The notes under the pieces were generated by a model. It did not search any database and had not been told where the DNA came from. It worked only from the letters and a program-made list of their open reading frames with translations. Positions 3,694-32,065 of a stretch of DNA of 64,000 bases are shown here, in pieces. Positions within the stretch are counted from its first letter, which is position 1; each line of letters opens with the position of its first letter. Location: the NCBI RefSeq assembly GCF_022810305.1, contig NZ_JALGQH010000023.1, forward strand, positions 1-64,000. Direction: 5' to 3'. The position numbers and the translations under genes were made by a program. The DNA is from Rhodococcus sp. ARC_M6 (GTDB taxonomy: Bacteria; Actinomycetota; Actinomycetes; Mycobacteriales; Mycobacteriaceae).

Positions 3694-3787
3694 TGGTTTC
3701 CCCTCCACCTGATGGACATCGACACATGAACTCCAATAGGTGCCTTCCGGTACCTACCTGTTGTCTCATACCCCGGAGGAACGGGTT

Positions 3788-6700
3788 TCAGACATCTTCC
3801 GCGAGTAGGTGGCGCTTGATCGATGCGGCGACGTGGGCGATCGGTCCGGGTTCGATCATCTGGTTGTGCCGGCAGTCCACGTCGTCGACTGCGATGTCGC
3901 CGCCGACAAATTCGCGCCATTCGCTGACGTCGTGGCCGTTGTCGGCGGATTGCCTCGCGATGAAGAACTGGACGTCTCCGTCGAAACGCGTCGGCCGGTG
4001 TGCGTTGGTCAGGGCGACGGAGCGTGAGTATCCGGCGCTGATGCGTTCGAGGTGCTGCGCTTCGACTCCGGTACCGGGGCCGAGGGTGCGTTCGAGGAGG
4101 GCCGCGGCGTCGGCGAATGTTTCGATCTCGGTTTCGTCGGACGGAAGTCCCAGTCCTGCAATGAGTTCGGTGACCGAGAGTTCTTCCGGTTGATCATCGC
4201 TGCTTGCCGGGAAGCTGTCGAGGATCGCGACGGTGGATACCGGTACGGATCGCGTGTCGAGTTCGTGGGCTACGGCGTGGGCGATGACGCCGCCGAGTGA
4301 CCAGCCGACCAGGTGGATGGGACCGTCGGGTGCGAGTTCCAGAATGCGGTCGGCATAGTTCTTGGCTAGTTCGGTGAGTGTGTCAAAGGTCGGTCCGCCG
4401 CTGAGCGATGGCAACTGGAGCCCGTAGATGGGCCGGCCGGCGTCGATGTGGCTGACGAATCCTGAGTATCCCCAAGATAATCCGATGCCGGGGTGGATGA
4501 AGAACAGCGGCGGCTGTGTTCCGTCGGCGCGCAGGGTGATGACGGGAGCGAGTACGGCGGAGATGTCGGTCGGCTGGGTCTCATGTTCGATCAGGTCCGC
4601 GGCGCGGGCGACTCCGGCTGGGGTGGGGTCGAGGAAGATCGACTGCAGTCGTACGCGTCGGCCGATTCGTTTGTCGAGTTCGGCGGTGATGCGGGTGGCG
4701 ACGATGGAGTTGCCGCCGAGGTCGAAGAAGTTGTCGTCGATGCCGACTGTGTCGTGGCCCAGTACGGAGGCGAAGATGTCGGTGACGACGCGTTCGGTGT
4801 TGGTGGTGGGCGGTGCGTAGGGCACGGTTCGGTGTTCGAAGTCCGGTGACGGGAGTGCTCGTCGATCGAGTTTTCCGACGGGTGTCATCGGGATCTTGTC
4901 GACGACGATGATGGCGGCGGGCACCATGTGTGCGGGTAGGCGCGCGGAGAGGTGGTGTCTGAGTTCGGCTTCCGCGACGGTGTGGCCTTCGACGGGCTGT
5001 ACGTAGGCGACGAGGACGGTGTCGCCGGCCGGCGATTGTTGGCCGAGGGTCGCGGCGAAGCCGACTGACGGGTGAGCGGTGAGGACGGAGTCGATTTCGC
5101 CGAGTTCGATGCGGAATCCACGGACTTTGATCTGGAAGTCACTGCGCCCCATGTATTCGAGGGTGTGGTCGGCGCGCCAGCGGACGAGGTCGCCGGTGCG
5201 GTACATGCGGTGACCGGGTTGGCCGTACGGGTCGGCGACGAATCGGTCGGACGTGAGGCCGGGGCGATGGTGGTAGCCGCGGGCTAGGCCGGGGCCGGTG
5301 ATGTAGAGCTCGCCGATGACGCCGACGGGTACGGGGCGTAGGTGTGCGTCGAGGACGAGGTCGGCGAATCCGATGGCGGGATGACCGATGTTGATGTTCT
5401 CCCCTGGCCGCATGGGTGTACTGACGCTGGCTTGGATGGTGGATTCGGTGGGTCCGTAGCCGTTGAACATGCGGCGGTCGCGTCCCCAGATGTCGACGAG
5501 TTCAGGTGTGCAGGCTTCGCCGCCGACTGCGAGTACACGCAGTTCGGGTAGTGCGGAGCTTTCGATGGAGCTCAGCGCGGTGGGTGTGATGAAGGCGTGG
5601 GAGACGTGTTCGTCGGCGAAGATGTCGGCGAGTTCGGATCCACCGAAGACGGCCGGCGGAATGATAACCAGGCAGGCTCCGCTACCGAAGGCCATCATGA
5701 GTTCGAAGACTGATGCGTCGAAGCTCGGTGATGCGAGGTGGGAGATGCGTGAGGTTATCTTGACGTTGAATCGTTGATGTTCCTCGGCGTTGAGGTTGGA
5801 CAGGCCGCGGTGGGTGACGATCACGCCCTTCGGCTTGCCGGTCGATCCTGAGGTGTAAATGAGATACGCGGGGTGTTCGAGGTGGAGTGGGGATGTGCGT
5901 TCGGTGTCTGTGACGGGTGTGGCGTCCTGGGCGTCGAGAGTCTGCCGCGACAGTTCTGAGTCCAACACGATCCAGTCGATACTCTCGGGCAGCAGGTCTC
6001 GCCGGGAGCTGACTGTCAGGCCGAGGACGGCTCCGGAGTCGTCAAGCATGTGCACGATGCGGTCTTCGGGATAGTTCGGGTCGACGGGCAGGAATGCCGC
6101 ACCGGTTTTGGTGACGGCCCAGATTGCGATTACTTCCCAGGCGGATCGCGGAAGGCCCAGTGCTACAAAGTTTTCCGGTCCGATTCCGCGCGCGAGCAGC
6201 ACCTTGGCGAGTCGTGTCGATTCGGTATCGAGTTCTTCGTAGGTCAGGTTCCAGTCTTGGCTGGATACTGCTTGGCCGTTCGGGTTGAGTTCGACGGAGG
6301 CTGCGAGGATTTCCGGCCAGGTCTGTGCTCGGGTTGCACGCTCCCCCAGCGCCGGGACGAGTGCAGCGGACTCTTCGGTGCCGAGGATGTCGATGTCAGC
6401 GAGTTGGATGTCGGTGTCGGCCCCGACGGATTCGAGGATCAGACGCAGTCGCTGCGAAAACTCTTCGATGGTGCCGGGTTCGAAGAGGTCTACCGCGTAG
6501 ATGAATGCTGCTGATATTCCGTCCGGTTGTCCGTCGGCGTCGAAGGATTCACTGACGACGAGTTCAAGGTCTTCCTTGGCGGTTTTGGAGTCGGTTCCCA
6601 CAGCTTCTACGGTCAGGCCGGGGAGTTCGAGTACGACCTTTTCGTTGTTCTGCAGTTCGAGTGCCACTTGGAAGAGCGGTGAGTACGAGGTGGACCTGGT

Positions 6701-9700
6701 GGGGTTGATGACGTCGACGAGCCGTTCGAACGGCAGGTCGGCGTGCTGGTAGGCGGCGAGGTCCGTCTCTCGTATCCCGCGCAGTAAGTCGGTGAATGTT
6801 TGATCCGGGTCGACTGGGGTGCGGAGGACCAGTGTGTTGACGAACATTCCGACGAGGTTCTCGACTTCTTCTTTGCCGCGGCCGGCGATGGGGGTGCCGA
6901 TGCTGACTTCTTCGGCGCCGGAGAGTTTGGCGAGTAGGACTGCCAGTGCGCCGTGCAGTGCCATGAACATGGTGACGCCCTGTTCACGGGTCAATGCGGT
7001 GAGTGCTCGGTGTGTGTCGGCGTCGATGCGGAAGTCGAAGCGGTCGCCGTGGAAGGTTTGTTGGAGTGGGCGTGGGTGATCGGTGGGTAGTGCGATGACG
7101 TCGTCGAGTCCGGCGAGTTGTTCACTCCAGTAGTGCAGTTGACTGCTGATGATCGACGTCGGATCTGTTTCGGAGCCGAGGACGTCCTGCTGCCACAGGG
7201 TGAAGTCTGCGTACTGGACCGGTAGCGGTTCCCACGCGGGCGAGGTGCCGGCGGTGCGGGACAGGTAGGCAATCATGACGTCGCGTGCGAGGGGCGCCAT
7301 GGATGCGCCGTCAGCGCAGATGTGGTGGACGACGACGAACAACACGTGGGTCGCTGTCAGTTCCGGTGGGGTATCGAGTTGGTACAGCGACACCCGTAGT
7401 GGAAGTTCGTTGGCGACGTCGAACCCTTCTTGTGCGAGGGCGGTCATGCGTGGGAGTAGTTCGGAGTCGGTGACGGAAACGGTACTGATCGTGGGCAAGG
7501 CATCGTCGACGGTCAGGACGCGCTGTACCGGTTCACCGTTGACGGTCGGGAATACCGTTCGCAGGCTTTCGTGTCGGCCGACGACGTCGACGATGGCGGC
7601 TTTCATGGCGTCGACGTCGAGATCACCGGTGAGGCGGACGGCAAACGGAATGTTGTATGCCGCTGAGCTGGTGTCGAATTGGTTGAGGAACCACATCCGC
7701 TTCTGGGCGAGCGAGAGCGGAATGTTTCCGGTGCGTTCGGCTCGGGTGAGGGGTACGTGGATGCTGGTTGTGGGCGCTGCGGTGAGTTGCTCGGCGAGTT
7801 CCGCTGTGGTGGGTGATTCGAAGAGTGTTCGCACTCCGAGGTCCAGTTCGAGTGCCGTGTTGAGCCGCGAGACGACGCGGGTGGCGATCAGGGAGTTGCC
7901 GCCGCGGTCGAAGAAGTTGTCGTCGATGCCGATCTTGTCGACGTCGAGGATTTCGGCGAAGACGGCTGCGATTTGGCGTTCCAAGGGTGTGCGCGGTGCG
8001 CGGAATTCGGGGGCTGTCGCGGTGAAGTCCGGCGCGGGCAGCGCGTGGCGGTCGATTTTGCCGACGGCGTTGCGCGGTAGTTCGTCGACGATGGTGATGC
8101 TGGTGGGGACCATGTGCGTGGGCAACCGGCCGGACAGGTGGGAGACGACGGCTGCGGGGCTGAGGTCGGAGCCGTCGGTGATGGTCAGGTACGAGGCGAG
8201 TACGGTGCTTCCGCCGGGCCCTTCGACGCCGAGGGTGACGGAGTTGGTGACGCCGTCGATGGAGGTGATCGCGGTGTCGATCTCCCCCAGTTCGATGCGG
8301 AATCCGCGGACCTTGATCTGGAAGTCGCTGCGTCCGACGTATTCGATGGTGTGGTCGCTGCGCCAGCGGACGATGTCGCCGGTGCGGTACATCCGGTCGC
8401 CGGGCTTGCCGTAGGGGTTGGCGACAAACCGTTCGCTGGTCAGGGCGGTGCGGCGGTGGTAGCCGCGGGCGAGTCCGACGCCGGCGATGTAGAGCTCTCC
8501 TTGGGCGCCGACGGGTACGGGCTGCAATCGGGTGTCGAGGACGAGTTCGCTGACTCCGCGGATGGGTCCACCGATGGTGATCGGTGCGCCGACGGTCATG
8601 GGGGCACTGATGTCGGCCATGACGGTGGTTTCGGTGGGTCCGTAGGCGTTGGCCAGTTCGCGGCCGGGTGCCCAGCGCGTGACGAGGTCGGGTGGGCAGG
8701 CTTCTCCCCCGACAACGACGTGCCGGAATTCGTCGAGTCCGACGGGGCTGACTGTGGCGAGGGCTGCGGTGGTGATGAATGCGTGGGTGACGTGTTCGCG
8801 TTTGATGAGGTCGGCGAGTTCGGTGCCGCCGTAGACGTCGGTCGGTACGAGGACCATCGTGGCGCCCACACCGAACGCTTGGAGGTATTCGAAGATCGCG
8901 CCGTCGAAGCTGGGGGTGGCGAAATGCAGTGTCCGAGAAGTGTGGTCGGCGTGGAAGCGTCGTTGTTGGTCGAGTGCGAAGCTGTCGAGGCCGGCGTGCG
9001 TGACGACGACGCCCTTCGGTTTTCCGGTCGAGCCGGAGGTGTAGACGATGTAGGCGGCATTGCTCATCTCGAGTGCACCGAGGCGTTCATCTTGGCGCAT
9101 GGGGAGAGTGCAGGCGAGGGATACGTCCCGGTCGAAGGGTTCTTCGTCGATGACGAGCCACGATGCGGTGTTCGGCAGTGAGTCGACGGCATCGCTGACG
9201 GTGAGGCCGAACAGCACGTTGGAGTCGGTGAGCATGTGTTCGATGCGGTCGGCCGGGTAGGTGGGGTCGACGGGTACGAAGGCTGCTCCGGTTTTGGTGA
9301 CAGCCCAGACGGCGAGTACGGATTCGATCGAGCGGGCGATGCCGATGGCGATGGAAGTTTCGGGGCCGGCGCCTCGTTTGACGAGCTCCCTCGCCATTTG
9401 GTTGGAACGCCGGTCCAGATCGAAATAGGTGAGAGTGCTGGTGCCGGCGGACAGTCCGGTTCGGTCCGGCGCGGACAGTGCGATTCGATCGGGGAAGGTT
9501 GCGGCGACGTCGGCAAAGATTTCGGGAAGGGTTCGGGCCGAGCGGCCGGGGGCACCGAAGACGGGGACGAGGTCGCGGGTCTCGAATTCGGTCAGGAGCG
9601 ACACTCTGGCCAGGGGTTCGTCGGGTGTTGCAGCGATGTGTTCGATGGCGATGAGGATGCGTTCGGCGATTGTCGCGGCTTCGCGTTCGGTGAACTGGGT

Positions 9701-21700: not shown

Positions 21701-24700
21701 CTCGATCGCGCCGCCGGACGTGGCGGCGCATTCTGCGCGCACATCCAACGAATCGAGCACGAGGGTGCTCACGCCGTCCGGAATCGCGTCCTCGTGGGCG
21801 GCGACGGTCAACACTGTGAGGGCGCCGGAATCGGTGATCATGTGCCGAATGCGATCCGCTGGATACGCCGGGTCGACGGGAACGAACGCGGCACCGGTGC
21901 GTGCGAGCGCCCAGATTGCCACGACCGATTCCACCGATCGCGGCAAGGCGAGCGCGACAACTGTTTCCGGACCGGCCCCACGCGAGATGAGTACTCGCGC
22001 AAGCTGATTGGCTTGGCGATCGAGAATCTTGAACGTGATCTCGGTGTCGCCGAAGACGAGGGCGACGGAATCGTTGCGGTAATTCGCTTCGAGGATGTGG
22101 TGCAGCAGAGCGGGTTCCGGGGCGTTTCCGCTGGGAGTATTCTCGGTGCTCTCCACCAACTCGATGTCGCCGACCGGCACATGCGGCGATTGTGTGACGG
22201 CGTCCGCGATGCGGATCAGGTACTGCGCGAACCGCTCGACACTGGAACGGTCGAACAGTGCGGTGGCGTAGGTGAAACCGGCGTCGATACCGGCCGGTTC
22301 ACCGTGTTCGTCGAATTTCTCGGCGAGCGTCAACTGGAGGTCGAAGTTGGAGACCACTGTCGCCAGATCAAGGACGTCGACGTCCAGGCCCTCGAAACTC
22401 AGTGTCGGGTTCTCGGTGTTCTTGAACTCGAGCATTGCCTGGAATAACGGAGAGTGCGACGTGGACCGTTCGGGCGCCAACGCGTCCACGATCCGTTCGA
22501 ACGGAATATCGGCGTTGTCGAAAGCGTCGAGGTCGACGCCGCGCACCTGGGTGAGCACGTCGGCGAAGGAACGTGCCGGGTCGAGTCCCGTGCGCAGGAC
22601 CAAGGTTCCGACGAACATGCCGACCATGCGGTCGAGCAGTGCGTCGCCGCGCCCGGCGATCGGCGAACCGATCGCAATGTCGTCCATCCCGGACAGCCGT
22701 GAGAGCAGGAGTGCGAACATCGCGTGCGCTGCCATGAAGAGGCTGCTGCGATTGTCCTGCGCCGTCATGATCAACCGCCGGTGAACATCGGCAGAAATCT
22801 CGAACGGCACCACGGCACCGGACAGATCCTGCACGCGGGGGCGCGGGTGGTCCACCGGAAGTTGGAGCAGTTCGGGAAGCCCAGCCAGTCGTGCGCTCCA
22901 GTAGTCCAGTTGACCGGACAGCACGCTGGTGCCGTCGGTGATTTCCCCGAGCGCCCGCTGCTGCCACAACGCGAAGTCTGCGTACTGAACGGGCAACGGA
23001 TCCCAATCAGGCGCATTTCCCCGGGTACGGGCGGAGTACGCGGACATAACGCCTCGGGCCAGCGGTGCCATCGAGAAACCGTCGGCGCAAATGTGATGAA
23101 CCACCACGACGAGGACGTGCTCGCGTTCGGAGACCTGGATCAGTTCCGCTCGCAACGGCGGCGCGCTCGTGACGTCGAATCCTCGCTCCGTCAGCTGAGT
23201 TATCCGGTCCGACACTTCGTCTGCCCCGGCGAGCGAGAGCGGAAGGCTCGCCAACGCGTCGTGGGGTTCGACGACGACCTGGGCCGGAATTCCGTCGATC
23301 ATCGGGAATTGTGTGCGCAGCGACTCGTGCCGCGTCAGGACGTCGCCGATCGCGCTCTCCATCGCGCTGCGAACGAGTGTGCCGCGCAACCGGATGGCGA
23401 TGGCAACGTTGTAGGCGGAGGAGGTCGTGTCGAACTGGTTGATGAACCACATTCGCTTCTGTGCCAACGACAACGGGATTCGACTGGGGCGGGGCATCGA
23501 TTCGAGCGGAATGCCGGCCACCAGGGTGTGGGAGCGTTCGCAGATCGCCGCCAGTTCGGTAACTGTCGGTGCATCGAAGATATCGCGGATCGAAAGATTC
23601 AGTGCAAGAGCATCATTGATGCGGGCGATCGCACGCGCTGCGATCAGACTGTTGCCGCCTCGCTCGAAGAAATTGTCGTCGACACTGAGCGCGTCGATAC
23701 CCAACAGTTCCTCGAGTACGTGCGCCAACTGCGTTTCGACGGGTGTGCTCGGCGCCAGATAGGTGCGGACGCCGCCGAAGGAGGGAGCGGGCAAGGCTGG
23801 TCGATCAAGTTTTCCGGTGGAACCCAACGGGAAGCCGTCCATCTCGATGATCACGGGCGGCACCATGTACGCGGGAAGTTCCGAGCGGAGAACACGGCGG
23901 ATCTCGTCGTGATCGAGTGTTTCCCCCTTCGCCGCGATCACATACCCCACCAGTGAATCGCCGAGTGTGGCGTCGTGGTGCACGCGGGTCGCTGCCGCAA
24001 TGACACCGGGGGCGCGCAGCATCGCCGCTTCCACCTCGGGCAATTCGATCCGCAATCCGCGAATCTTGACCTGGAAATCGCGTCGACCGATGTAGTCGAG
24101 TTGACCGTCGGCGCGCCACCGCACGATGTCTCCGGTGCGGTACATCCGCGTCGAACCTGTCGGAGTGAAGGGATCGGCAACAAATTTGTCGGCCGTGAGA
24201 TCACTTCGTCCGAAGTAACCGCGGGCCAACTGCACGCCCGCGAGGTACAACTCGCCGTGGATCCCGACTGGAACCGGGTGCAGGCGCGAGTCCAGCACGT
24301 ACACCTGTGTGTTCCAGACCGGGGCACCGATCGGAACCGACGCGCCGGGTTCGTGCAGGAACTCGGCCGCGGTCACGTCCACGGCCGCTTCGGTCGGTCC
24401 GTACAGGTTGTACAGGTGCGCATTGCTGATACGGGTGAAGTCATGGGCAGTTGCCGACGGTAGCGCTTCACCACTGCTGAACACCTGGGACAGGCTCGCG
24501 CATTCGTCGCGCGACGTCGCGGCAACGAACTCCGCGAGCATCGACGGAACGAAGTGGGCTGTGGTCACGGCGCGCTCGGCGATCAGAGTGGACAGGTATA
24601 GCGGGTCGCGGTGACCGTCCGGTGCAGCGATCACCAATCTCGCCCCGGTGTTCAGGGGCCAGAACAGTTCCCACACCGACACGTCGAAGGTGATCGGCGT

Positions 24701-27700
24701 TTTCTGAAGGACGACGTCGGACGCTTCGAGAGAGTAGGTTCCCTGCATCCACCGCAGACGATTGACAATCGAACGGTGCGATACTGCAACACCTTTCGGA
24801 CGTCCGGTCGAACCGGAGGTGAAGAGGACGTAGGCGGTGTTGTCGGGCCGGAGCGGTGAAATTCGATCAGCGTCGGTGACCGATCGCGCAGTCTCCTCCG
24901 GTGCCAGGTCGACATCGATGATCTCGATATCCGTCGGCAGGTTTCCGTGGCTACCGGCCATCGCGAGGACACACACGGGGTCGGCTACGGAGAAGACGTA
25001 TCCGATCCGCTCGGCCGGATGATCCGGATCCACCGGGACGTACGCGCCGCCGCTGCGAATGACCGCATGAATGGCGACCAGCAGTTCCAACGAGCGCGGC
25101 ATTGCAACTGCGACGCGCTGATCCGGGCCGACACCGCGTGAGATCAACGTTCGTGCGAGCGCGTTCACCTGATTGTCGAATTGTGCGTAGGTCAGAACTG
25201 TGTCGCCGAACTGTAGTGCCGGCGCCTGAGGTGTCCGCGCTACCTGAGCGCGAACCAGATCATCAAGAGTGTATTCACCCAGTTCCCGGCGGGTTGCGTT
25301 CCACCGCTCGAGCACCAGGGCCCGCTCGCCCGGCGCACACAGATCGACGTCGCCGACCACGGATTCCGGGTGTGCGCTCACCTCGTCCAACAGGGAAACG
25401 AACCGGTCCGCCAACCCCGACATAGTGTCGGAATCGAACAGATCACTGGCGTAGTTCAATCGGCCGTCGAGGTGATCGGACTGCTCGGTGATGATGACCT
25501 GAAGATCGAATTTAGCTGCGCCGGTTAATAGTTCCTCCACCACGACGTTCAGCGACGGCAACGCCACCTCCGTCGGTGGGGAACCTTGCATCACCAGCAT
25601 GACCTGGAACAGCGGTGAATCACTCTCCAAGGCGTCAACCAGCAGGTCGTAGGGAATGTCGCTGTGCCGCAATGCCGCCACGTCCGTCGCGCGGGTACGC
25701 GAGACGGTGTCCTCGAAACTCGCGTCGCCGTCGATGACAGTTCGCAGCGCGAGCGTGTTCACGAACATGCCGACGACGTCGTCGAGGGCACGTTCACTGC
25801 GACCCGCGACCGGCGTGCCGATGACGACGTCGTTTCCGCCGCATTCTCGGGCGAGGAGTACCGCCAGAGCGGCGTGGACGACCATGAACACGCTGGCGTC
25901 GTGATCAGCAGCGATTGCTGCTATCCGCTGATACGTCGGTGTGTCGATCGTGAAATCAAGGTTATGGGCGCGCAGAGCGCCTTGCGCCGGCCGCGGATGA
26001 TCCATCGGAAGTTCCGGCAGTTCGTCGCGGGCATCGAGTTCATTCGTCCAGAAACGCAATTGTGAGCCGAGGATCGAATCCGGTGTCGCCGCATCACCGA
26101 GCGCGCGCCGCTGCCACTCGCTGAAGTCGCCGTACTGGACCTCGAGCGGTAGCCATGCGGGTACGCGCCCCGATACCCGGGCGGTGTAGGCGACCATCAC
26201 GTCACGGGCCAGCGGGGCCATCGACAATCCGTCGCCGGCAATGTGGTGCACGACCAGCACCAACACGTGATCCTGATCAGACACTTCCAACAGAACCATT
26301 CGCACCGGCGGAGCGGACGTGACGTCGAACCCGGCGCGTGCAACTTCGTCGGCGCGGGCACGCACCGCACCGGCCGAGCACACCTCGACAGTGAGTTCGG
26401 ATGCCACATCGTCCACGTCGAGAACGTGCTGTACCGGGCCGTTCGCCGACGCCGGGAACACCGTGCGCAGTGACTCGTGCCGGATGAGGACATCGCGCAA
26501 TGCAATCTCGAGTGCCGAGAAATCAAGGTCACCGGTCATCCGCACGGCGATCGGAATGTTGTACGCCGGCGACGCCGGATCGAGTTGGTTGGTCAACCAC
26601 ATCCGTTGCTGCGCCAACGACGCCGCAATCGGTTCGGGTCGTGGAATCCTCGTCAGTGCCGGCAGATGAACTTCCCGCGAGTCGGAATGATCAGCGCGTG
26701 CAGCCAATCCTGCCACGGTCGGGGCCTCGAACAGGTCGAGCACACTGAGCGAGGTGCCCAGCGCGCCGTTCACGCGGGCTACGACACGCGTCGCAACCAG
26801 TGAGTCGCCGCCGAGTTCGAAGAAACTGTCGTCTGCGCCGGCGCGGGTGATTCCGAGCAGGTCGCAGTACACGGCGGAAATTCGCTTTTCGGTGGAGCTT
26901 TCGGGGGCACGGTACTCGCGGGCCCCCACCGCTGTGTCGATGGACGGCAGCGAATTCCGGTCGATCTTGCCGGCCGGAGTCAGGGGAATCGTGTCAAGCA
27001 CGACGATGCGTGAGGGAACCATGTGCGGTGCCAGAAAGGCCGCCGCGTGCGCTGTCAACTCGGATACGTCGACACGCATCCCGGGTGCAGCCGTGACGTA
27101 ACACGCCAGCAGCGTCTCACCGCTGTTGCCGGTCACTCCGACGGTCACTGCCTCGTCGACGCTCGGATGCCGACGGACAACTTCGTCGATCTCACCGAGT
27201 TCGACGCGGAAGCCGCGGATCTTGATCTGGAAGTCACTGCGGCCCAGGTATTCCAACTCGCCGTCGCGGTTCCAACGAGCCAGATCGCCCGTCCGGTACA
27301 TCCGCTCCCCCGGCAACCCGTTCGGCGCGGGCACGAAGCGCAAGGCCGTCGTGGCAGCGCGTCCGTGATAGCCGCGGGCCAAGCCGACGCCGCTGACGTA
27401 CAGTTCCCCGGCGACACCCACCAGGACGGGATGAAGGCGAGAATCCAGCACCATCGCCGACGCTCCCCGCATCGGAACTCCGATCGTGACCGGAACGTCG
27501 CGGTGGAGCGGTCTCGACAACGTGGCAACCACTGTTGTCTCGGTGGGCCCGTAAGCGTTGAACATCAACCGGTGGCCGGCCCACTGTTCGACGAGAGTCG
27601 GCGAGCATGCGTCGCCGCCGGTCACGATCACCCGCAGAATCGGCAGGTGGTCCGGATCCACCGTCGCGAGAGCTGCCGGAGTGATGAAGGCGTGCGTTAC

Positions 27701-30484
27701 CTGCCCGTCGCGCAGGACATTCGCCAGTTCCTCCCCGCCGTACACCGTGGGCGGCGCGATCACCATGGTGGCGCCGGCGCCGAATGCAAGGAGCAACTCG
27801 AGAACGGAGGCGTCGAAGCTCGGGGACGAGAAGTGCAAGGTCCGTGAATCTGATGCGATACCGAACCTGATCCGCTGCTCGTCCGCGAAACTGCTCAATC
27901 CGCGATGAGTGACCACGACGCCCTTGGGCAGACCGGTCGAACCCGAGGTGTAGATCAGATAAGCGGGGTCGTCGATTCTCAGCGGCCGGATGCGGTCGGT
28001 GTCGTCGAGGGGCTCAGTCGAATGCTGCTGGCCTCCGGGTGCCAGCCACAAGGCGTCAACGCCCCAACTGTCTGCGACGCCGGGCAGGCAGATCCCGACG
28101 CGCGTCCCGGAATCGGTGAGCATGTGCTCGATACGGCCGGGTGGATAGTTGGGATCGACGGGTAGGAATGCGCCGCCGGCCTTGGCCACAGCCCAGGTGG
28201 CGATCACCGATTCCATCGAACGTGTCAGTGCAAGTGCCACGTACGTGCCCGGTCCGACGCCTTGAGTGATCAGTTCCCGGGCCAGGGCGTTCGATCGGCC
28301 GTCGAGTTCACGGTAGGTCAGAACCTGATCGCCGACGACAATCGCGTCGGCATCCGGGTTCAATTCGGCTGCAGCACAAAGTAGCTCGTCCAGGGTTTGG
28401 GCTTCCGATGCGGGCGAGCCGGACACCGAGCGCAGGTGCTCGAATTCCGTGTCGTCGAGAATCTGAAGATCACCGACGGGGGTGTCCGGGGCTTCGAGTG
28501 CGGCGGCCAGTATTCGCTGGATCCGAGTGCACACCAGGTGAGCGGACTGTTCGTCGAGAACGCTCTGGTCGAAGGCGACCGCGAAGGTCAGCGTTCCTTC
28601 TTGCTCCACGACATCAATTTCCAGACTGATGTCGATTGCCGGACTGAAGTCGTCGCGCCTGACGTCGGGACTCCCCTCGTTCAGTGCTACATGTATTTCT
28701 GCCGCGTCCACTGCGTCAGGGCTGACATGTCGGCGGATCTCGTCGTCATGGGCGGCAACAGCATTCAACAGATCCGTGAAGGGCCGATCCGGGGTGATCG
28801 TGATGCGCACCGGGACCAACTGCGAGTCCGACCCGAACCGAGCGCCGAGCACGATGTCGTCGGTATTCGTGATGTGCGAGAGCATGACCGCCAGTGCGGC
28901 GTGAACGACACTGAATACCGTGGTCTCGGTGTTCCGGGTCATTGCCACGACACGGTCGTAGACCTGTGGCGACATCAATGTCCGCACAGTGCCGAAATTC
29001 GCCCGCAACTCCGATGTCCGGGGACGATCGAGGACTACGGAGGCACCTTCGGGAGCGTCCATCAACTCGTAAGCCCAGAACGCTTCGAGTTCACGATCCC
29101 TCGTGATCTGCTCGCCGGCCTTGGCGCTGGAGCGATGCACCTGATCGAGTGGTGTTCCCGGGCCGGCTGCGATCAGTTCACTGACCAACTCCGAGAAGTT
29201 CGCCTGATGCTCGTCGAGCTCCTCCCGGGTGTAGCGATCGGGATTTGCTCGGAACTCGATCAAAGTCTTGACCGAAGTTCCACTCTGATAGATGTTGACC
29301 AGCAGATCCTCGACCGGACCCGACGTCACGATGTGGTACTCGCCGGTCATCGAACCCAGCGTGATTTCCTGGTGGAAGAGCATCACGTTCATCATCGGTC
29401 CGGACAACCGCGTGTCCTCGGCGGACAATCCGGCGTCACGTCGAATGTCCTCGAGGCTGCACCGTTGATGTCGCAGAGCGCCGAGCAGTTCCAACTGCAC
29501 CCGCCCCACCAGATCGTCGACAGTGTCTCCAGGGCGTACCTCGATGTGCAGGGGCGCGACGTTCACCAACATGCCGCCGGACCGTTGTAACGGCGCAGTA
29601 GTTCTCGCCGAAACCGGCAGATTGATCAGGACGTCTCCGTAGCCCGTACGACGCGACAAGTAGCAGGCCAACGCCGCGATCAGTACTGCCGCCGACGTGG
29701 CGCCCGAACGTGAACTCCATTCGTCCAAGGAGGCTAGCGAATCTTCTGACAGCTCCCCGGTCACCACCTGCGAGTGGGCTTGCGGTGGCGCTTCCCGATC
29801 CGAAAGCGTCGAACCGTGTTCCACGCCGGCAACGCGCTCCGCCCAGTACTCTCGGTCCGCATCGAAGCGACTCGATGCACGGTACGTCTGGTCCAATTCG
29901 GAGAGCTTCGCCAGATCAAGGGCCTTGTTGACGGCGGGTTCACGGCCTTCGAGTTCAGCCGTGTAGAGCGCCGCGATCCGGTTGACGATGGTCATGCCGC
30001 TGTAGCCGTCGAGCGCCACATGGTGAATTCGTGTGTACCACAGGTAATCTCGATCCCCCGTTTGCAGAATCGTCATCTCGACCAACCGGTCCCGGGTCAG
30101 ATCGAGAGTGGTCGCGTGGTCGTTGTCCATCCACTCCGACGCAGCTGCGCGGGGATCCTCATGGTTACGGAAATCGAAGTAGTCGACGGTTGCATCGATC
30201 GTGGGGTCGACTATCTGGCACGGTTCCCCGTCCGGGTACATCAACCGCAGGAACGGCGATTCGAACTCATGCGCCGCCGTCACCGCAGATCGAGACAACA
30301 AGCCGATATCCAGATCGCCATGGACCTCGATGTACTGCGCGACGAAGTACGGAACCGCCGGATGAAGCTGCTGCGCGAACCACATGCTCCGCTGCACCGC
30401 AGACAACGGGAAAGCGCCGGCCGGGAGTGTTCTCGGTGCAGACTCTCGGGTACTGACCTCGTTGTTCGAATTCTCGGTGCTCAT
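3788..30484 (-). CDS. Giant seven-module non-ribosomal peptide synthetase (about 8,898 aa)
   Basis: A single open frame encodes a complete assembly line: C, a half C domain, then A-T, C-A-T, C-A-T-E, C-A-T, C-A-T-E, C-A-T, C-A-T and a C-terminal TE. Carrier serines lie in GGDS/GGNS motifs at about residues 1228, 2279, 3332, 4879, 5977, 7532 and 8595. HHxxxDG motifs are intact in all seven full C domains (first at residues 154-160) and in both E domains. The first C domain has no upstream module, suggesting N-acylation of the first residue. Predicted product: acyl-X-Ser-(D)X-X-(D)Thr-X-X, released or cyclised by the TE. The ATG at 30484 is preferred over a GTG at 30493 because GGGGGTGG lies just upstream. 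No MbtH, acyl-AMP ligase, exporter or phosphopantetheinyl transferase gene is in the window. Confidence 0.95.
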   Translation of the reverse strand: MSTENSNNEVSTRESAPRTLPAGAFPLSAVQRSMWFAQQLHPAVPYFVAQYIEVHGDLDIGLLSRSAVTAAHEFESPFLRLMYPDGEPCQIVDPTIDATVDYFDFRNHEDPRAAASEWMDNDHATTLDLTRDRLVEMTILQTGDRDYLWYTRIHHVALDGYSGMTIVNRIAALYTAELEGREPAVNKALDLAKLSELDQTYRASSRFDADREYWAERVAGVEHGSTLSDREAPPQAHSQVVTGELSEDSLASLDEWSSRSGATSAAVLIAALACYLSRRTGYGDVLINLPVSARTTAPLQRSGGMLVNVAPLHIEVRPGDTVDDLVGRVQLELLGALRHQRCSLEDIRRDAGLSAEDTRLSGPMMNVMLFHQEITLGSMTGEYHIVTSGPVEDLLVNIYQSGTSVKTLIEFRANPDRYTREELDEHQANFSELVSELIAAGPGTPLDQVHRSSAKAGEQITRDRELEAFWAYELMDAPEGASVVLDRPRTSELRANFGTVRTLMSPQVYDRVVAMTRNTETTVFSVVHAALAVMLSHITNTDDIVLGARFGSDSQLVPVRITITPDRPFTDLLNAVAAHDDEIRRHVSPDAVDAAEIHVALNEGSPDVRRDDFSPAIDISLEIDVVEQEGTLTFAVAFDQSVLDEQSAHLVCTRIQRILAAALEAPDTPVGDLQILDDTEFEHLRSVSGSPASEAQTLDELLCAAAELNPDADAIVVGDQVLTYRELDGRSNALARELITQGVGPGTYVALALTRSMESVIATWAVAKAGGAFLPVDPNYPPGRIEHMLTDSGTRVGICLPGVADSWGVDALWLAPGGQQHSTEPLDDTDRIRPLRIDDPAYLIYTSGSTGLPKGVVVTHRGLSSFADEQRIRFGIASDSRTLHFSSPSFDASVLELLLAFGAGATMVIAPPTVYGGEELANVLRDGQVTHAFITPAALATVDPDHLPILRVIVTGGDACSPTLVEQWAGHRLMFNAYGPTETTVVATLSRPLHRDVPVTIGVPMRGASAMVLDSRLHPVLVGVAGELYVSGVGLARGYHGRAATTALRFVPAPNGLPGERMYRTGDLARWNRDGELEYLGRSDFQIKIRGFRVELGEIDEVVRRHPSVDEAVTVGVTGNSGETLLACYVTAAPGMRVDVSELTAHAAAFLAPHMVPSRIVVLDTIPLTPAGKIDRNSLPSIDTAVGAREYRAPESSTEKRISAVYCDLLGITRAGADDSFFELGGDSLVATRVVARVNGALGTSLSVLDLFEAPTVAGLAARADHSDSREVHLPALTRIPRPEPIAASLAQQRMWLTNQLDPASPAYNIPIAVRMTGDLDFSALEIALRDVLIRHESLRTVFPASANGPVQHVLDVDDVASELTVEVCSAGAVRARADEVARAGFDVTSAPPVRMVLLEVSDQDHVLVLVVHHIAGDGLSMAPLARDVMVAYTARVSGRVPAWLPLEVQYGDFSEWQRRALGDAATPDSILGSQLRFWTNELDARDELPELPMDHPRPAQGALRAHNLDFTIDTPTYQRIAAIAADHDASVFMVVHAALAVLLARECGGNDVVIGTPVAGRSERALDDVVGMFVNTLALRTVIDGDASFEDTVSRTRATDVAALRHSDIPYDLLVDALESDSPLFQVMLVMQGSPPTEVALPSLNVVVEELLTGAAKFDLQVIITEQSDHLDGRLNYASDLFDSDTMSGLADRFVSLLDEVSAHPESVVGDVDLCAPGERALVLERWNATRRELGEYTLDDLVRAQVARTPQAPALQFGDTVLTYAQFDNQVNALARTLISRGVGPDQRVAVAMPRSLELLVAIHAVIRSGGAYVPVDPDHPAERIGYVFSVADPVCVLAMAGSHGNLPTDIEIIDVDLAPEETARSVTDADRISPLRPDNTAYVLFTSGSTGRPKGVAVSHRSIVNRLRWMQGTYSLEASDVVLQKTPITFDVSVWELFWPLNTGARLVIAAPDGHRDPLYLSTLIAERAVTTAHFVPSMLAEFVAATSRDECASLSQVFSSGEALPSATAHDFTRISNAHLYNLYGPTEAAVDVTAAEFLHEPGASVPIGAPVWNTQVYVLDSRLHPVPVGIHGELYLAGVQLARGYFGRSDLTADKFVADPFTPTGSTRMYRTGDIVRWRADGQLDYIGRRDFQVKIRGLRIELPEVEAAMLRAPGVIAAATRVHHDATLGDSLVGYVIAAKGETLDHDEIRRVLRSELPAYMVPPVIIEMDGFPLGSTGKLDRPALPAPSFGGVRTYLAPSTPVETQLAHVLEELLGIDALSVDDNFFERGGNSLIAARAIARINDALALNLSIRDIFDAPTVTELAAICERSHTLVAGIPLESMPRPSRIPLSLAQKRMWFINQFDTTSSAYNVAIAIRLRGTLVRSAMESAIGDVLTRHESLRTQFPMIDGIPAQVVVEPHDALASLPLSLAGADEVSDRITQLTERGFDVTSAPPLRAELIQVSEREHVLVVVVHHICADGFSMAPLARGVMSAYSARTRGNAPDWDPLPVQYADFALWQQRALGEITDGTSVLSGQLDYWSARLAGLPELLQLPVDHPRPRVQDLSGAVVPFEISADVHRRLIMTAQDNRSSLFMAAHAMFALLLSRLSGMDDIAIGSPIAGRGDALLDRMVGMFVGTLVLRTGLDPARSFADVLTQVRGVDLDAFDNADIPFERIVDALAPERSTSHSPLFQAMLEFKNTENPTLSFEGLDVDVLDLATVVSNFDLQLTLAEKFDEHGEPAGIDAGFTYATALFDRSSVERFAQYLIRIADAVTQSPHVPVGDIELVESTENTPSGNAPEPALLHHILEANYRNDSVALVFGDTEITFKILDRQANQLARVLISRGAGPETVVALALPRSVESVVAIWALARTGAAFVPVDPAYPADRIRHMITDSGALTVLTVAAHEDAIPDGVSTLVLDSLDVRAECAATSGGAIEDRELHAPRSLDHPAYVIYTSGSTGLPKGVMVTHRGLAALAEQERTTFGVTARSRTLHFSSPSFDASILELLMAVSAGAAMVIAPPTILGGDELTALLRDQHVTHAFITPAALSTVNASSLDELEAVGTGGDVCPPELVAAWVRPGRIMINAYGPTESTVVASITRPLTPARTVTIGRPSLGIACSVLDARLHPVPIGVAGELYVRGDGVARGYRNRAATTAERFVADPAGLPGSRLYRTGDLVRWNTSGELEYLGRSDFQVKIRGFRIELGEIEAALAQCPGVAQSVATTFTRDNGPVRIVGYVVPFDPAAAPLDPSDIIAVVTAHLAPHMVPSAIVILDELPRTSNGKLDRRALPQPDFAAQHPRSRSAETELETTLAALFADVLAVDSVGVDDSFFALGGDSIMSIQLVARARSAGLVFSPRDVFEAKTVAGLAAVIELDEGTAPVVLDELDGGDIGAMPLLPVAQWWLGRFGDTVRDNPAGLDSFSQATALNAPADLHSIEQLTAAMQVVLDRHGALRARLELTPTRQLIVGDVGSIDAAHVCREVRVNAEPGTADFDAAIVDALNDARDALDPRNASMVRVAWLVGTSGAGRLLLVIHHLAVDGVSWRVLVPELAAAFHQLDAGLTPVVTDTPPGTAVTAETSLRRWSTALTEIAPTRRGEIGLWRSMLTGADPQIGARTLDPRRDTASTQARVSVEVSADVSETVLTALPARYRGSVNDGLLAALALALTQWRSSRGVRTNDVLVSMEGHGREAHVVPGADIVHTLGWFTTVFPVRVDLSGVDVGAVMAGSGNAGTLLKSVKELLRSVPDSGIGYGLLRYLDDEGQQQLSGLQAPQVSFNYLGRFGGGDADQDTTGDWALTSDIDLEASAHGSDMPLASVLDVNAVVTDIDGRPHLTATWAYPSEMLEERDVREIADLWVSALGVLAEHAERTEHGGFTPSDLTLVNLGQSAIERFEEQIPDLADIWSLSPLQAGLLFHARYAEHTVDAYTVQLTLELDGVDPARLHRATQALLDRHENLRTSFVTDDDGNSVQIVHSDAVVPWTEIDISPLPAGDQQAELQNLMRADRIRGFDMATAPLLRFLLLRTGDDTYRLILTNHHILLDGWSMPLLVRDLLTLYATDSDTSALSRVHPYRAYLDWLSHRDTETALRAWSQALDGLDEPTMLTEARSVGELSATSRSTLISLDEHHTQALREFIRSRGLTMASLVQVGWGIVLADLMGRDDVVFGGTVSGRPHQVAGVESMVGLFINTVPIRVRLDAQESLADLCVRVQDEQSALLDHHYVGLPDISTAVGAAATFDTLTVFESYPVDRTGLSAGTDIAGMHVLDVHDAEDAAHYPLAVIASTADGQFRLKFEYFPGVLADRDVDSIAHRLMRTIELIASHPETPLAHLSLMPESEVRELVPARGRPGGSSRTLAQILTDTAAQFPERIALSAGNRRLTYAELDERSDQLAHVLIADGVRPEDRVAIGISRSVESVVAMWAITKTGAAFVPVDPTYPRERITFMLDDCDAHIGLTTGEFAANLPTGIRWIILDDVSVAPSRGPVLVPVRLDNAAYVIYTSGSTGQPKGVVVTHSGLENFADAQREMYGVDEHSHTVALSSPSFDASVLEYLLAFPNGGTMVLVPTTVYGGTELATVLRDNAVTHGFFTPAVLNSVDPSGIDSLTSVIVGGEACPPELLRTWAPGRSFFNLYGPTETTIGANISDPIPADGVVVLGGPIRGVHEVVLDRRLQPVSVGVPGELYIAGAGLARNYHRRRALTSARFVADPYGDSGDRMYRTGDVVRWRSDHTIEYLGRSDFQVKIRGFRIELGEIDTALASMPGVEFAITVAVAGPAELTALASYVLIGSEAAVTVDDITAQARGQLPAHMVPASVMILDELPLTGTGKVNRAALPEPQFDTAATDFIAPTTEFERLVAAAFEEVLETGPIGISTHFFDAGGNSLTATRVVARVNSALGTDIGVRALFDSPTVRALAHHVETTDPDRAPRPPLTRREYPDPIPVSVAQKRMWFLNQFDITSPAYNIPLAVRLTGHLDQDALAAAIEDVLARHESLRTVFPSIDGTPTQRILAAADVPLNLDPEHVEERDLINRILEFGSAGFDVSQSVPLRSAVFELAPDQHVLVIVAHHIIADGFSMNPLAIDVATAYAARSVGAAPTWAELPIQYADFTLWQLEHLGSEDDNTSEITRQLAYWTRQLANLPEPITVPTSFPRPAQQSMRGAVASFDIPASTHRLLADVARRHGVTMFMVMHSALATLAARLSGTDDIVIGTPIAGRGEAELDHLVGMFVNTLVLRTHLSSDSSFADLLDQVREVDLGAFHHADLPFERLVDALHPDRSTSQTPLFQVLLEFRNNVEPTLTLPGLTVSGVEIDLPVAKFDLQLSVTEHYGERGEPGGISAEFIYARDLFDADLMATYARRFTSLLTAAAQEPTVALGDIEILDDVERRAVLTEWNAPGYAELTGTETISSRFSSRVAEHSAAIALGDEHTAITYAELDARANRLARLLIAQGIGPESLVAVALPRTVDLVIGLLAVIKSGAAYLPIDVTYPAERVRFLFDDAAPRCLIATDEFRGMLPTEVVDSVFSVIELGSGAIAVQLDHLSPSPITDTDRLAPLHPESIAYIIYTSGSTGQPKGVLVSHRNVLTLMDNASPTFEFDHTDVWTMFHSYAFDFSVWELWGPLLHGGRLVVVDYYTTRSPDMFDELLRRERVTVLNQTPTAFYQLAEADRAHRPSDQEPDLALRYVIFGGEALDLGQLRKWYSRRATASQQIDTAGSPQLVNMYGITETTVHVSRIALTRDDADHAAASIIGRGLPGMNVYVLDQRLRLVPPGVVGEMYVAGDQVTRGYLGRPALTSTRFLPDPFGGSGDRMYRSGDLAKWNGAGQLEYLGRSDFQVKVRGFRIELGEIEASMLRCPGVAQSVAMVRSDGGSSERIVGYVVAEAGTTIDSASVINSVSTELASYMVPTVIVVLDALPLTVNGKLDRRALPAPDFAVLATSSDSSRSPSSAAESVLADLFADVLGLPSVGIDDSFFGLGGDSIMSIQLVSRAKAAGLTFTPRDVFEAKTVAGLARVASLEPTDAVPTLEELPGGGTGSMPLTPIMEWLLQRSGGNLELIRSYSQSALLSLPRHVVGSALEQALQSLLDHHDALRSRLDVGQRREPGDVDGPHRLIVAEPGSVRAEEILQRVEITSESGPDFIEAAERAMREASGRLDPTNGVMIAAVWLDPVGGREHGRLLLVIHHLAVDGVSWRILVPDLAVAYGAALENTAAPLPVSGTSVRRWSTGLAEHAPTRRTELALWKNTAGKDALLGSRHIDPAVDVGSTVDRITVDIPTAVTDAILTAVPRTFGGSVNDGLLAALALAVTGWRHSHGKRGTDVLINLEGHGREEDAVPGADLSRTVGWFTTIFPVRLDLAGISVIDALSGGDAIASAVKSVKETLLAIPDNGIGFGMLKYLDQSAPLPALTTPQISFNYLGRFAGADEGAGEVPWLPVPGVTLDEVHSGDLPAASVLDINTVTTDTAAGPVLRSTWSFPRGILTSDDASELAELWTLALTALAGYTAGADRRELTPSDLDLVSLDQLAIEHLSRRFPDLTDVWSLSPLQSGLLFHARFDDTGIDPYMVQLTLELGGRIEPERMRRAAQALLDRHPSLRAGFIAAPGGRALQIIRSAVDVPWTELDLSDLGAAEQESAWTRILEDDRTLRFDMETAPLIRFMLTRTGPDSARLVITNHHILLDGWSTPLVLRDLLTLYATDGDPEILPRAPHYRDYLSWLSEQDAEASLTAWRETLHGIDTPTLLAPTTDDAERVSEVVSVSLPADHTDVLRTFVRSHGLTMPTVVQVAWGIVLGELLGRDDVVFGGTVSGRPPQVAGVESMVGLFINTVPVRIRLDARESLAELCIRIQGEQADVLDHHYVGLADISAAVGPAASFDTLTVFESYPVDRAGLSAGTDIAGMHVMGIDGRDSAHYPLAVVASEQDTLDIKMEYQPTQFTEREAATIAERILIAIEHIAATPDEPLARVSLLTEFETRDLVPVFGAPGRSARTLPEIFADVAATFPDRIALSAPDRTGLSAGTSTLTYFDLDRRSNQMARELVKRGAGPETSIAIGIARSIESVLAVWAVTKTGAAFVPVDPTYPADRIEHMLTDSNVLFGLTVSDAVDSLPNTASWLVIDEEPFDRDVSLACTLPMRQDERLGALEMSNAAYIVYTSGSTGKPKGVVVTHAGLDSFALDQQRRFHADHTSRTLHFATPSFDGAIFEYLQAFGVGATMVLVPTDVYGGTELADLIKREHVTHAFITTAALATVSPVGLDEFRHVVVGGEACPPDLVTRWAPGRELANAYGPTETTVMADISAPMTVGAPITIGGPIRGVSELVLDTRLQPVPVGAQGELYIAGVGLARGYHRRTALTSERFVANPYGKPGDRMYRTGDIVRWRSDHTIEYVGRSDFQIKVRGFRIELGEIDTAITSIDGVTNSVTLGVEGPGGSTVLASYLTITDGSDLSPAAVVSHLSGRLPTHMVPTSITIVDELPRNAVGKIDRHALPAPDFTATAPEFRAPRTPLERQIAAVFAEILDVDKIGIDDNFFDRGGNSLIATRVVSRLNTALELDLGVRTLFESPTTAELAEQLTAAPTTSIHVPLTRAERTGNIPLSLAQKRMWFLNQFDTSSAAYNIPFAVRLTGDLDVDAMKAAIVDVVGRHESLRTVFPTVNGEPVQRVLTVDDALPTISTVSVTDSELLPRMTALAQEGFDVANELPLRVSLYQLDTPPELTATHVLFVVVHHICADGASMAPLARDVMIAYLSRTAGTSPAWEPLPVQYADFTLWQQDVLGSETDPTSIISSQLHYWSEQLAGLDDVIALPTDHPRPLQQTFHGDRFDFRIDADTHRALTALTREQGVTMFMALHGALAVLLAKLSGAEEVSIGTPIAGRGKEEVENLVGMFVNTLVLRTPVDPDQTFTDLLRGIRETDLAAYQHADLPFERLVDVINPTRSTSYSPLFQVALELQNNEKVVLELPGLTVEAVGTDSKTAKEDLELVVSESFDADGQPDGISAAFIYAVDLFEPGTIEEFSQRLRLILESVGADTDIQLADIDILGTEESAALVPALGERATRAQTWPEILAASVELNPNGQAVSSQDWNLTYEELDTESTRLAKVLLARGIGPENFVALGLPRSAWEVIAIWAVTKTGAAFLPVDPNYPEDRIVHMLDDSGAVLGLTVSSRRDLLPESIDWIVLDSELSRQTLDAQDATPVTDTERTSPLHLEHPAYLIYTSGSTGKPKGVIVTHRGLSNLNAEEHQRFNVKITSRISHLASPSFDASVFELMMAFGSGACLVIIPPAVFGGSELADIFADEHVSHAFITPTALSSIESSALPELRVLAVGGEACTPELVDIWGRDRRMFNGYGPTESTIQASVSTPMRPGENINIGHPAIGFADLVLDAHLRPVPVGVIGELYITGPGLARGYHHRPGLTSDRFVADPYGQPGHRMYRTGDLVRWRADHTLEYMGRSDFQIKVRGFRIELGEIDSVLTAHPSVGFAATLGQQSPAGDTVLVAYVQPVEGHTVAEAELRHHLSARLPAHMVPAAIIVVDKIPMTPVGKLDRRALPSPDFEHRTVPYAPPTTNTERVVTDIFASVLGHDTVGIDDNFFDLGGNSIVATRITAELDKRIGRRVRLQSIFLDPTPAGVARAADLIEHETQPTDISAVLAPVITLRADGTQPPLFFIHPGIGLSWGYSGFVSHIDAGRPIYGLQLPSLSGGPTFDTLTELAKNYADRILELAPDGPIHLVGWSLGGVIAHAVAHELDTRSVPVSTVAILDSFPASSDDQPEELSVTELIAGLGLPSDETEIETFADAAALLERTLGPGTGVEAQHLERISAGYSRSVALTNAHRPTRFDGDVQFFIARQSADNGHDVSEWREFVGGDIAVDDVDCRHNQMIEPGPIAHVAASIKRHLLAEDV
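3791..4560 (-). other. NRPS type I thioesterase domain
   Basis: Alpha/beta hydrolase release domain with an oxyanion segment FFIHPGIG, nucleophile elbow GWSLGG (about residue 8730), acidic member in AILDSFP and catalytic His in CRHNQM. Hydrolysis and macrolactonisation, through Ser2 or Thr5 for instance, cannot be told apart from sequence alone. Confidence 0.8.
4580..7750 (-). other. NRPS module 7 (C7-A7-T7), probably aliphatic residue
   Basis: LCL-type C domain with HHICADGAS near residue 7719. The A7 code reads DAFFAGGIQK. The carrier is GGNSIVATRI, Ser near residue 8595, leading directly into the thioesterase. Confidence 0.65.
7760..10910 (-). other. NRPS module 6 (C6-A6-T6), probably aliphatic residue
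   Basis: DCL-type C domain (SLSPLQSGLLFHARF, NHHILLDGWS near residue 6671). The A6 code reads DGFFVGAVMK, resembling the isoleucine code DGFFLGVVYK at six positions. Carrier Ser near residue 7532. Confidence 0.65.
10915..15710 (-). other. NRPS module 5 (C5-A5-T5-E5), D-threonine
   Basis: C5 has HHIIADG. The A5 code reads DFWNIGMVHK, the standard threonine code. Carrier motif GGDSIMSIQ (about residue 5977) is followed by an E domain with HHLAVDGVSW near residue 6180, so the Thr should be epimerised (allo at one centre). Confidence 0.8.
15725..18845 (-). other. NRPS module 4 (C4-A4-T4), probably aliphatic residue
   Basis: C4 is of the DCL type (SLSPLQAGLLFHARY, NHHILLDGWS near residue 4033), consistent with taking a D-residue from module 3. 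The A4 code reads DALFIGLIGK, with no exact match known to me. Carrier Ser at 4879. Confidence 0.65.
18850..23505 (-). other. NRPS module 3 (C3-A3-T3-E3), D-configured aliphatic residue
   Basis: C3 has HHICADG. The A3 code reads DALFGGAVVK, close to A1. Carrier motif GGDSIMSIQ (Ser 3332) is the form that precedes epimerisation domains, and an E domain follows with HHLAVDGVSW near residue 3530 and a C-terminal YLGRFG motif. Confidence 0.7.
23520..26650 (-). other. NRPS module 2 (C2-A2-T2), serine
   Basis: C domain of the LCL type with HHIAGDG near residue 1413. The A2 pocket code reads DVWHFSLVDK, identical to the serine code of EntF, and its surroundings (FDVSVWELFWPL, HFVPSMLAEFV, NLYGPTEAAVDV) are EntF-like. 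Carrier Ser at 2279. Confidence 0.8.
26690..28400 (-). other. NRPS module 1 (A1-T1), probably aliphatic residue
   Basis: The adenylation domain has LIYTSGSTGLPKG near residue 845. The ten-residue pocket code read by alignment to GrsA is DALFVGAVVK. I know no exact match; Phe at the fourth position and Gly at the sixth are common in Leu/Ile/Val codes. Carrier Ser at 1228. Confidence 0.6.
28456..30427 (-). other. NRPS loading region: starter C domain plus half C domain
   Basis: Residues about 20-455 form a full condensation domain with HHVALDG (154-160). Residues about 462-677 then repeat only the C-terminal lobe of a C domain (FWAYELMDAPE ... FSVVHAALAVML ... IVLGARFG), with no HHxxxDG and no N-terminal lobe. 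Adenylation domain 1 follows directly. The half domain cannot catalyse on its own by the usual mechanism. Confidence 0.8.
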
Positions 30485-30648
30485 CACAACCACCCCCGGC
30501 TGGTGTGCTGGGTGTGGAGTGGAGAAAGTGTGGTTCGGGGATTGAACAAGTACATCGCACCGCCTCGATATCGAGAGTGGAAACCATGTGAACGATCCTT
30601 GTGAGCCCTGCCGGTGAGGTCATCGACCACGAAAGTGGGTCGGCTCGG

Positions 30649-30676
30649 AGTTCGAACCTCCCCGAAGGTCCGAACT
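30649..30676. promoter_or_regulatory. Imperfect 11-bp inverted repeat upstream of the NRPS
   Basis: AGTTCGAACCT (30649-30659) and AGGTCCGAACT (30666-30676) pair at 10 of 11 positions across a 6-base spacer, 165 bases before the NRPS start. It is a candidate operator or leader hairpin. Apart from it, 30494-30770 holds nothing else I can support. Confidence 0.4.
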
Positions 30677-30770
30677 AGTAAGGATTTGAGTTGTGTTTCG
30701 TTATGTGTCCGGCACGCCGCACTGGCGCGGTGCCGTGCACACAGCTACAAACTGGTTGCCCAGGCTAGCG

Positions 30771-31112: not shown

Positions 31113-31200
31113 GTCTGCACACTTTACTCGAGATTCGGAGGCCCTCAATGTGCGCGTGCAGTAACCGGTAAGATGGGGAGGTTGCGTCTTCTCGCCACAC

Positions 31201-31227
31201 GGGAACCAATCGGGGACTCGTGGCGTT
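31201..31227 (+). promoter_or_regulatory. SigR/SigH-type promoter of rbpA
   Basis: GGGAAC (31201-31206), 18 bases, then GTT (31225-31227) fits the GGAAY-N18-GTT consensus of thiol/disulfide-stress sigma factors. The -10 lies about 75 bases before the rbpA start. In Streptomyces coelicolor rbpA is a SigR target, which supports the reading. Confidence 0.55.
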
Positions 31228-32054: not shown

Positions 32055-32065
32055 CCACCCCGCAT

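Follow-up and report, generated by a model that had tools for sequence, protein, structure and literature searches.

The locus examined here raises the question of which peptide a giant single-gene non-ribosomal peptide synthetase (NRPS) of Rhodococcus sp. ARC_M6 assembles, and whether that peptide belongs to a family already described. The gene lies on the minus strand of the window, by which we mean the whole stretch of 64,000 nucleotides that was analysed, from a genome of 6.34 Mb in 134 contigs. The family in question is that of the humimycins, whose members A and B share the pattern acyl-Tyr-Ser-D-Tyr-Phe/Tyr-D-Thr-Val/Ile-Val (PMC12024397, Table 1). Humimycin A is 3-hydroxymyristoyl-Tyr-Ser-D-Tyr-Phe-D-Thr-Val-Val (PMC12024397), and in our reading of the flattened table the Tyr and Ile of humimycin B, printed two columns apart, are residues 4 and 6. 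Both were predicted from IupU of R. equi and a synthetase of R. erythropolis (PMC12024397, PMC5550956); a review lists humimycins among products isolated from Rhodococcus, yet in its passages on them tells only the bioinformatic route (PMC7502451). Humimycins themselves were made by synthesis from predictions of the same kind as ours. Their clusters are described as carrying a conserved amidohydrolase, an N-acyltransferase and MbtH, and a look-alike synthetase, NRPS-5, as accompanied by an mce operon (PMC5550956).

For comparison, we read 31 synthetases: 24 humimycin-type (by our own rule: seven modules, Ser2, Thr5 and an A4 other than Ser), three of NRPS-5 type and four others.

Assembly line and acylation domain

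The frame is uninterrupted by internal stops over 8,901 codons from a GTG at 30493, although translation more probably begins at the ATG at 30484, which has a G-rich stretch about 8 nt upstream. Pfam families in the protein are Condensation, AMP-binding, AMP-binding_C, PP-binding and one C-terminal Thioesterase. A motif scan counted seven A and seven T domains and found HHxxxDG in nine C or E domains; together with Pfam it yields seven full C domains (one starter, four LCL, two DCL), two E domains (modules 3 and 5) and one TE. The HHxxxDG, T-domain GGxS and TE motifs are intact. The order, read directly, is Cs-(half C)-A1-T / C-A2-T / C-A3-T-E / DCL-A4-T / C-A5-T-E / DCL-A6-T / C-A7-T-TE.

3788-30493 (-): open reading frame from GTG
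3788..30484 (-): seven-module NRPS, humimycin-type in our reading, 8,898 residues from ATG
29129..30415 (-): starter condensation domain, HHVALDGYSG (Pfam, PDB matches, starter clade)
~28424..29101 (-): orphan C-terminal lobe of an LCL condensation domain, lacking the HHxxxDG lobe (Pfam, profile, tree)
25334..26641 (-): C2, LCL (Pfam, motif, C-lobe tree, as for all C and E domains below)
22139..23479 (-): C3, LCL
18887..20221 (-): E domain of module 3
17471..18793 (-): C4, DCL
14330..15676 (-): C5, LCL
11231..12322 (-): E domain of module 5
9566..10879 (-): C6, DCL
6359..7729 (-): C7, LCL
3809..4546 (-): thioesterase, GWSLGG (Pfam, motif)

In a C-lobe tree of nine synthetases, the starter (9/9, support 0.998), E and DCL domains form separate clades. 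Pfam, motifs and this tree thus bear out the first-pass annotation, which had described an intact single-gene line of seven modules with two E domains, a DCL domain after each and a TE. Its D-Thr5 also stands, but residue 3, which it had not named as a D-residue, should be one too, given the E domain in module 3. Searches of 30300-34200 gave 0 sigma-70 promoters and 0 terminators, no more than shuffled sequence, and no Rfam family or tRNA was found across the window.

The first C domain falls in the starter clade and not among LCL domains, as expected for the acylated product that had been proposed. Its best PDB matches are RzmA-Cs (7c1k/7c1h/7c1p, 2e-60), ObiF1 (9e-58) and the CDA PS1 starter (5e-50), with EntF also matched. 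ObiF1 and EntF take aryl donors, so that their place among the best matches leaves a fatty acyl group short of proof. In RzmA, whose starter domain is the 7C1H series, Arg148 gates acyl length and small residues at this position admit longer chains (PMC7804268). Counting from HHxxxDG, the gate residue of the window domain is Gly, as in 23/24 humimycin-type lines (one was not read), and Ala in 3/3 NRPS-5 types; by analogy, Gly would favour a medium or long acyl group. The window domain therefore resembles the RzmA and CDA starters (7C1H, 4JN3) in sequence and clade, differs from RzmA in its gate (Gly against Arg) and, unlike both, is followed by an extra LCL C lobe.

This lobe had been overlooked in the first-pass annotation. 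It comprises the ~225 residues between the first C domain and A1, which match positions 192-276 and 391-455 of the Condensation profile alone. A segment of similar size occupies the same place in 30/31 synthetases; the stretch in equi_C12 is longer and differently built. A profile of the 30 segments, equi_C12 excluded, aligns to the C-terminal lobe of C domains and finds 125/128 LCL (mean 224 bits), 59/59 DCL (91), 31/31 starter (54) and 0/59 E domains, classes being assigned by motif and position with two known mislabels, both in tukis_C7b (labelled LCL by motif, one groups with E and the other with DCL domains in the C-lobe tree). In the C-lobe tree, the eight half domains tested join the LCL group (support 0.964), apart from the starters. 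PDB matches are weak (best 7e-9) and are to this lobe in other C domains. When eight blocks were compared in 13 pairs of synthetases, the orphan lobe had the lowest conservation in 12 pairs; between the window and R. erythropolis it stands at 34% and the remaining seven blocks at 63-80%. In the thirteenth pair, the window and Rhodococcus sp. IEGM 1379, it is level with others. We infer that the lobe is what remains of an LCL domain that the module once had, before a starter C was placed ahead, and it may serve as a spacer. The phrase 'truncated condensation domain' was not met in the literature among the matches listed, which is weak evidence of novelty. A five-module relative in R. fascians (L127/L128; a 6,776-aa frame with E domains in its modules 1 and 3) has no Ser module and keeps the flanking Lnt-amidohydrolase pair; it looks like the same Cs and half C set before modules 3-7.

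Pocket codes and humimycin-type relatives

We re-derived the pocket codes by aligning all A domains, the closing K being assumed and not read. All seven codes of the first-pass annotation were reproduced letter for letter, including the Ser pocket in A2 and the Thr pocket in A5. Ser and Thr follow from textbook codes; the other residues are assigned by analogy with published humimycin readings, in which Tyr, Ile and Val are themselves predictions.

26924..28381 (-): A1, DALFVGAVVK, published analogue Tyr
23789..25291 (-): A2, DVWHFSLVDK, Ser
20624..22111 (-): A3, DALFGGAVVK, published analogue Tyr, epimerised
15989..17431 (-): A4, DALFIGLIGK, a pocket of the window's clade
12704..14296 (-): A5, DFWNIGMVHK, Thr
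8039..9556 (-): A6, DGFFVGAVMK, published analogue Ile
4904..6346 (-): A7, DAFFAGGIQK, published analogue Val

Over the whole protein, the window synthetase is 95% identical to that of Rhodococcus sp. IEGM 1379, 79% to that of R. globerulus, 69% to those of R. erythropolis and R. qingshengii, and 57% to those of R. equi (C4) and R. opacus. In a tree built from 29 seven-module synthetases, it joins R. globerulus and then R. erythropolis/R. qingshengii (support 1.0); the deeper branches of this tree are weak (one support 0.096). A plasmid search with the starter C returned 484 records, all below 60% identity.

The R. erythropolis orthologue (L117/L118) has the same layout of seven modules, Cs, E domains in modules 3 and 5 and TE. 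Its codes are identical to those of the window at A1, A2, A3, A6 and A7 and differ by one change at A5 (I/V) and three at A4 (DALFTGVISK); it also shares the Lnt-amidohydrolase flank and the downstream lipase. The R. equi synthetase (L121/L122) likewise shares the layout, the A1 and A2 codes and the Lnt-amidohydrolase flank, and departs by one residue each at A3, A5 and A7, by two at A6, and at A4 (DALFMGGVMK). We take the former as the humimycin B locus and the latter as IupU by inference, since matching loci to humimycins A and B in each species relies on second-hand descriptions. R. qingshengii has a second seven-module line as well, and downstream of it are encoded MlaE and five MlaD/Mce proteins. 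This other line so fits NRPS-5, and the humimycin B line would then be the orthologue of the window gene.

The window synthetase accordingly has seven C-A-T modules, E domains in modules 3 and 5, a TE, a starter C, Ser in A2 and Thr in A5, and it lacks the A4 pocket of either the humimycin A or the humimycin B line, which counts against our reading. Pocket 4 is, though, the most variable among humimycin-type synthetases: the 24 members carry 5, 1, 5, 10, 2, 5 and 4 distinct codes at A1 to A7, in an uneven sample in which 7/24 share one common set. With ten codes among 24 members, we did not treat the A4 mismatch as defining. A4 is also, narrowly, the least conserved A domain relative to R. erythropolis (66% against 69-79%), which suggests substitution within the pocket and not a domain swap.

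By its sequence, the window gene is the ARC_M6 form of a synthetase described before in Rhodococcus, the humimycin-type one. We put at about 0.88 the probability that it encodes the humimycin-type lipoheptapeptide synthetase of this strain, predicted to make acyl-[Tyr-like]1-Ser2-D-[Tyr-like]3-X4-D-Thr5-Ile6-Val7. Synthesis would begin with acylation of aminoacyl-T1 by the starter C; the acyl group would most likely be a fatty one of medium or long chain, perhaps 3-hydroxylated. Modules 1-7 would build the peptide, residues 3 and 5 being inverted by the E domains and then accepted by the DCL domains, and the TE would release the lipoheptapeptide, linear or cyclised. X4 would be the residue that sets the product of the window's clade apart from humimycin A (Phe4) and humimycin B (Tyr4). 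Also counted against this reading is the outcome of a Pfam scan of 20 flanking ORFs, in which we recognised no acyl-ligase, ACP or exporter. What appears new here is a member of a described family whose pocket 4 differs clearly from that of its nearest described counterpart.

Flanking genes and native role

2476..3708 (-): CalA-type secretory lipase, PF03583, 79 bp downstream of the NRPS (Pfam)
35361-36959 (-): Lnt, probably outside the pathway (Pfam)
36949-38556 (-): amidohydrolase, probably outside the pathway (Pfam)

The downstream lipase matches lipase A in the PDB (2veo, 2e-47), which we take to be Candida CalA. In 28 genus genomes searched for both genes, a lipase match (E <= 1e-80) was found in 27 and a TE match (E <= 1e-50) in 26, and in 22/28 no more than ~200 bp separate the best lipase match from the end of the TE; two of these 22 (G218, G220) have only a broken synthetase frame. 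Both genes are present but apart in G134, G110 and G165, the lipase is absent from G066, and the TE match is absent from G049 and G221. In R. opacus the lipase also follows the synthetase, and Lnt lies ~34 kb upstream on the same contig. R. equi differs from the window here: the 2.4 kb read downstream of its synthetase holds an AurF-like gene and no lipase. Across the genus, the lipase thus accompanies the synthetase consistently, and this pairing suggests a functional tie in which it might act on the peptide after release. In the main text of PMC5550956, no word starts with 'lipase'.

The window flank contains both genes that PMC5550956 assigns to humimycin clusters besides MbtH, the amidohydrolase and the N-acyltransferase. 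Among 61 named loci, the window-type line lies beside this pair in R. erythropolis, R. globerulus and R. equi, among others. Lnt occurs in 59/61 and the amidohydrolase in 52/61 family genomes; in 52/52 genomes having the amidohydrolase, Lnt is no more than 1 kb away from it, including G011 and G043, in which a search scoring at most five candidates per genome found no match to the synthetase N-terminus. Since the pair stays adjacent with or without a synthetase match, we regard it as a housekeeping flank, probably outside the pathway, and rejected both genes as tailoring enzymes. MbtH is likewise no constant part of the cluster. It is not beside the window synthetase (the only match in this genome is on contig C85) and adjoins the synthetase in one of six relatives, R. 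equi, where it is directly upstream (G205:C4:264864-265016); in the other five it is on another contig. As MbtH is said to belong to humimycin clusters, its absence beside the synthetases of the window and these five counts against the humimycin-type reading.

Two further observations concern neighbouring genes. Upstream of the synthetase, the ORF 30771-31736 (-) is 75-96% conserved in the six nearest loci and 50-56% in three more; it has no Pfam or NCBIfam match, and by eye ends in a short Cys-rich, zinc-ribbon-like stretch. The ORFs 41443-42132 (+) and 50725-51372 (-), ~9 kb apart, look by eye like a paralogous pair of HemK-type methyltransferases (NPPYVPA).

The same enzyme, making roughly the same peptide, could serve natively as the source of a cell-envelope, surface or iron lipopeptide and not of a secreted antibiotic. 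The adjoining TE and lipase are spread through the genus in a way that we find broad for an antibiotic, and the 20 flanking ORFs scanned yielded no recognisable exporter or immunity gene. Together with this breadth, the reported effect of an R. equi iupU deletion on low-iron growth (PMC5550956) argues for a broader physiological role, although the same paper states that iron does not control the expression of iupU. The activity of the synthetic compounds argues instead for an antibiotic: they inhibit Firmicutes, the resistance of S. aureus mutants maps to SAV1754, a homologue of MurJ, and overexpressing SAV1754 raises the MIC (PMC10281381, PMC12024397). On balance, an envelope or iron role is a serious possibility with the odds leaning against it, and any antibiotic role of the natural product likewise stays conditional.

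Remaining alternatives and meaning

The first-pass annotation had proposed a surfactant-like lipopeptide with five aliphatic residues and no known counterpart. DALVTGAVVK is a code for Tyr or Trp, and pockets 1 and 3 resemble it; a literature text search found neither this string nor any of the five unusual window codes. A new surfactin-like family would fit the Phe at code position 4 of these five pockets and the likeness of A6 to the bacitracin Ile code DGFFLGVVYK (PMC2866473). Against it, pocket 1 is identical to that of lines published as Tyr1, pocket 3 is identical to (R. erythropolis) or one residue off (R. equi) that of D-Tyr3 lines, and pocket 4 of the two template lines was read as Phe or Tyr, so that, by analogy with the published humimycin readings, only pockets 6 and 7 would be aliphatic. 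Aromatic specificities, which the annotation had itself listed as contrary evidence, are therefore largely what the pockets point to, though by published prediction. Moreover, orthologues have already been described as humimycin clusters (PMC5550956): the cluster is of a known type, if not identical to a known one, and the pattern thought to be without precedent is that of humimycins A and B. As the pockets match described lines, we rejected a surfactant new to the genus and consider this reading improbable.

A silent or inactive synthetase is less probable again: the degenerating C lobe before A1 would suit it, but catalytic motifs are present throughout an unbroken frame, and each of the 24 humimycin-type relatives read retains a full-length frame. 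Least probable of all is membership of the mce-associated NRPS-5 family, which we rejected on pocket codes and tree: despite a similar module and E-domain layout and 49-51% identity, the three members examined carry a Ser code in A4 (a feature of these three, not a published definition), other A1 and A7 codes and the Ala gate, they form a separate clade among the 29 synthetases, and no mce family was found among the 20 flanking window ORFs scanned. The NRPS-5 of Ceniceros 2017 in R. qingshengii (G204:C22) illustrates this, sharing the window's layout, Ser2 and Thr5 but having Ser at position 4, other A1 and A7 pockets and an mce operon nearby.

In that R. qingshengii synthetase (L123/L124), A2 and A4 are identical over 390/390 residues compared, both with Ser codes, and its A4 is only 38% identical to that of the window. 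This would reflect either a recent copy of A2 over A4 or an assembly-collapsed repeat.

Returning to the humimycin-type reading, its parts can be joined in a tentative composite, more apt to fail in some part than to hold as a whole. Lipoinitiation would have been gained by setting a whole starter C before an elongation module whose own LCL domain had been truncated between its two lobes, and the remaining lobe, between Cs and A1, would be a drifting spacer that marks the junction. The dedicated partner would be the CalA-type lipase, not the amidohydrolase or N-acyltransferase, trimming, transferring or esterifying the acyl peptide outside the membrane, and diversity would arise mainly through pocket 4.

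At stake are the natural counterparts and the role of the humimycins. The synthetase is widespread in the genus, and with six pockets nearly fixed and one varied, the codes predict which residue differs between strains; the products of R. globerulus and R. erythropolis, for instance, would be expected to differ chiefly at residue 4. The secretory lipase next door in most genomes searched offers a concrete handle on the pathway, and the two supposed tailoring genes, the Lnt N-acyltransferase and the amidohydrolase, drop out of the humimycin model. The junction of starter C and orphan lobe, a natural C-domain join, may interest NRPS engineers. The seven-module synthetase itself is an ordinary but useful addition to the described humimycin-type family.
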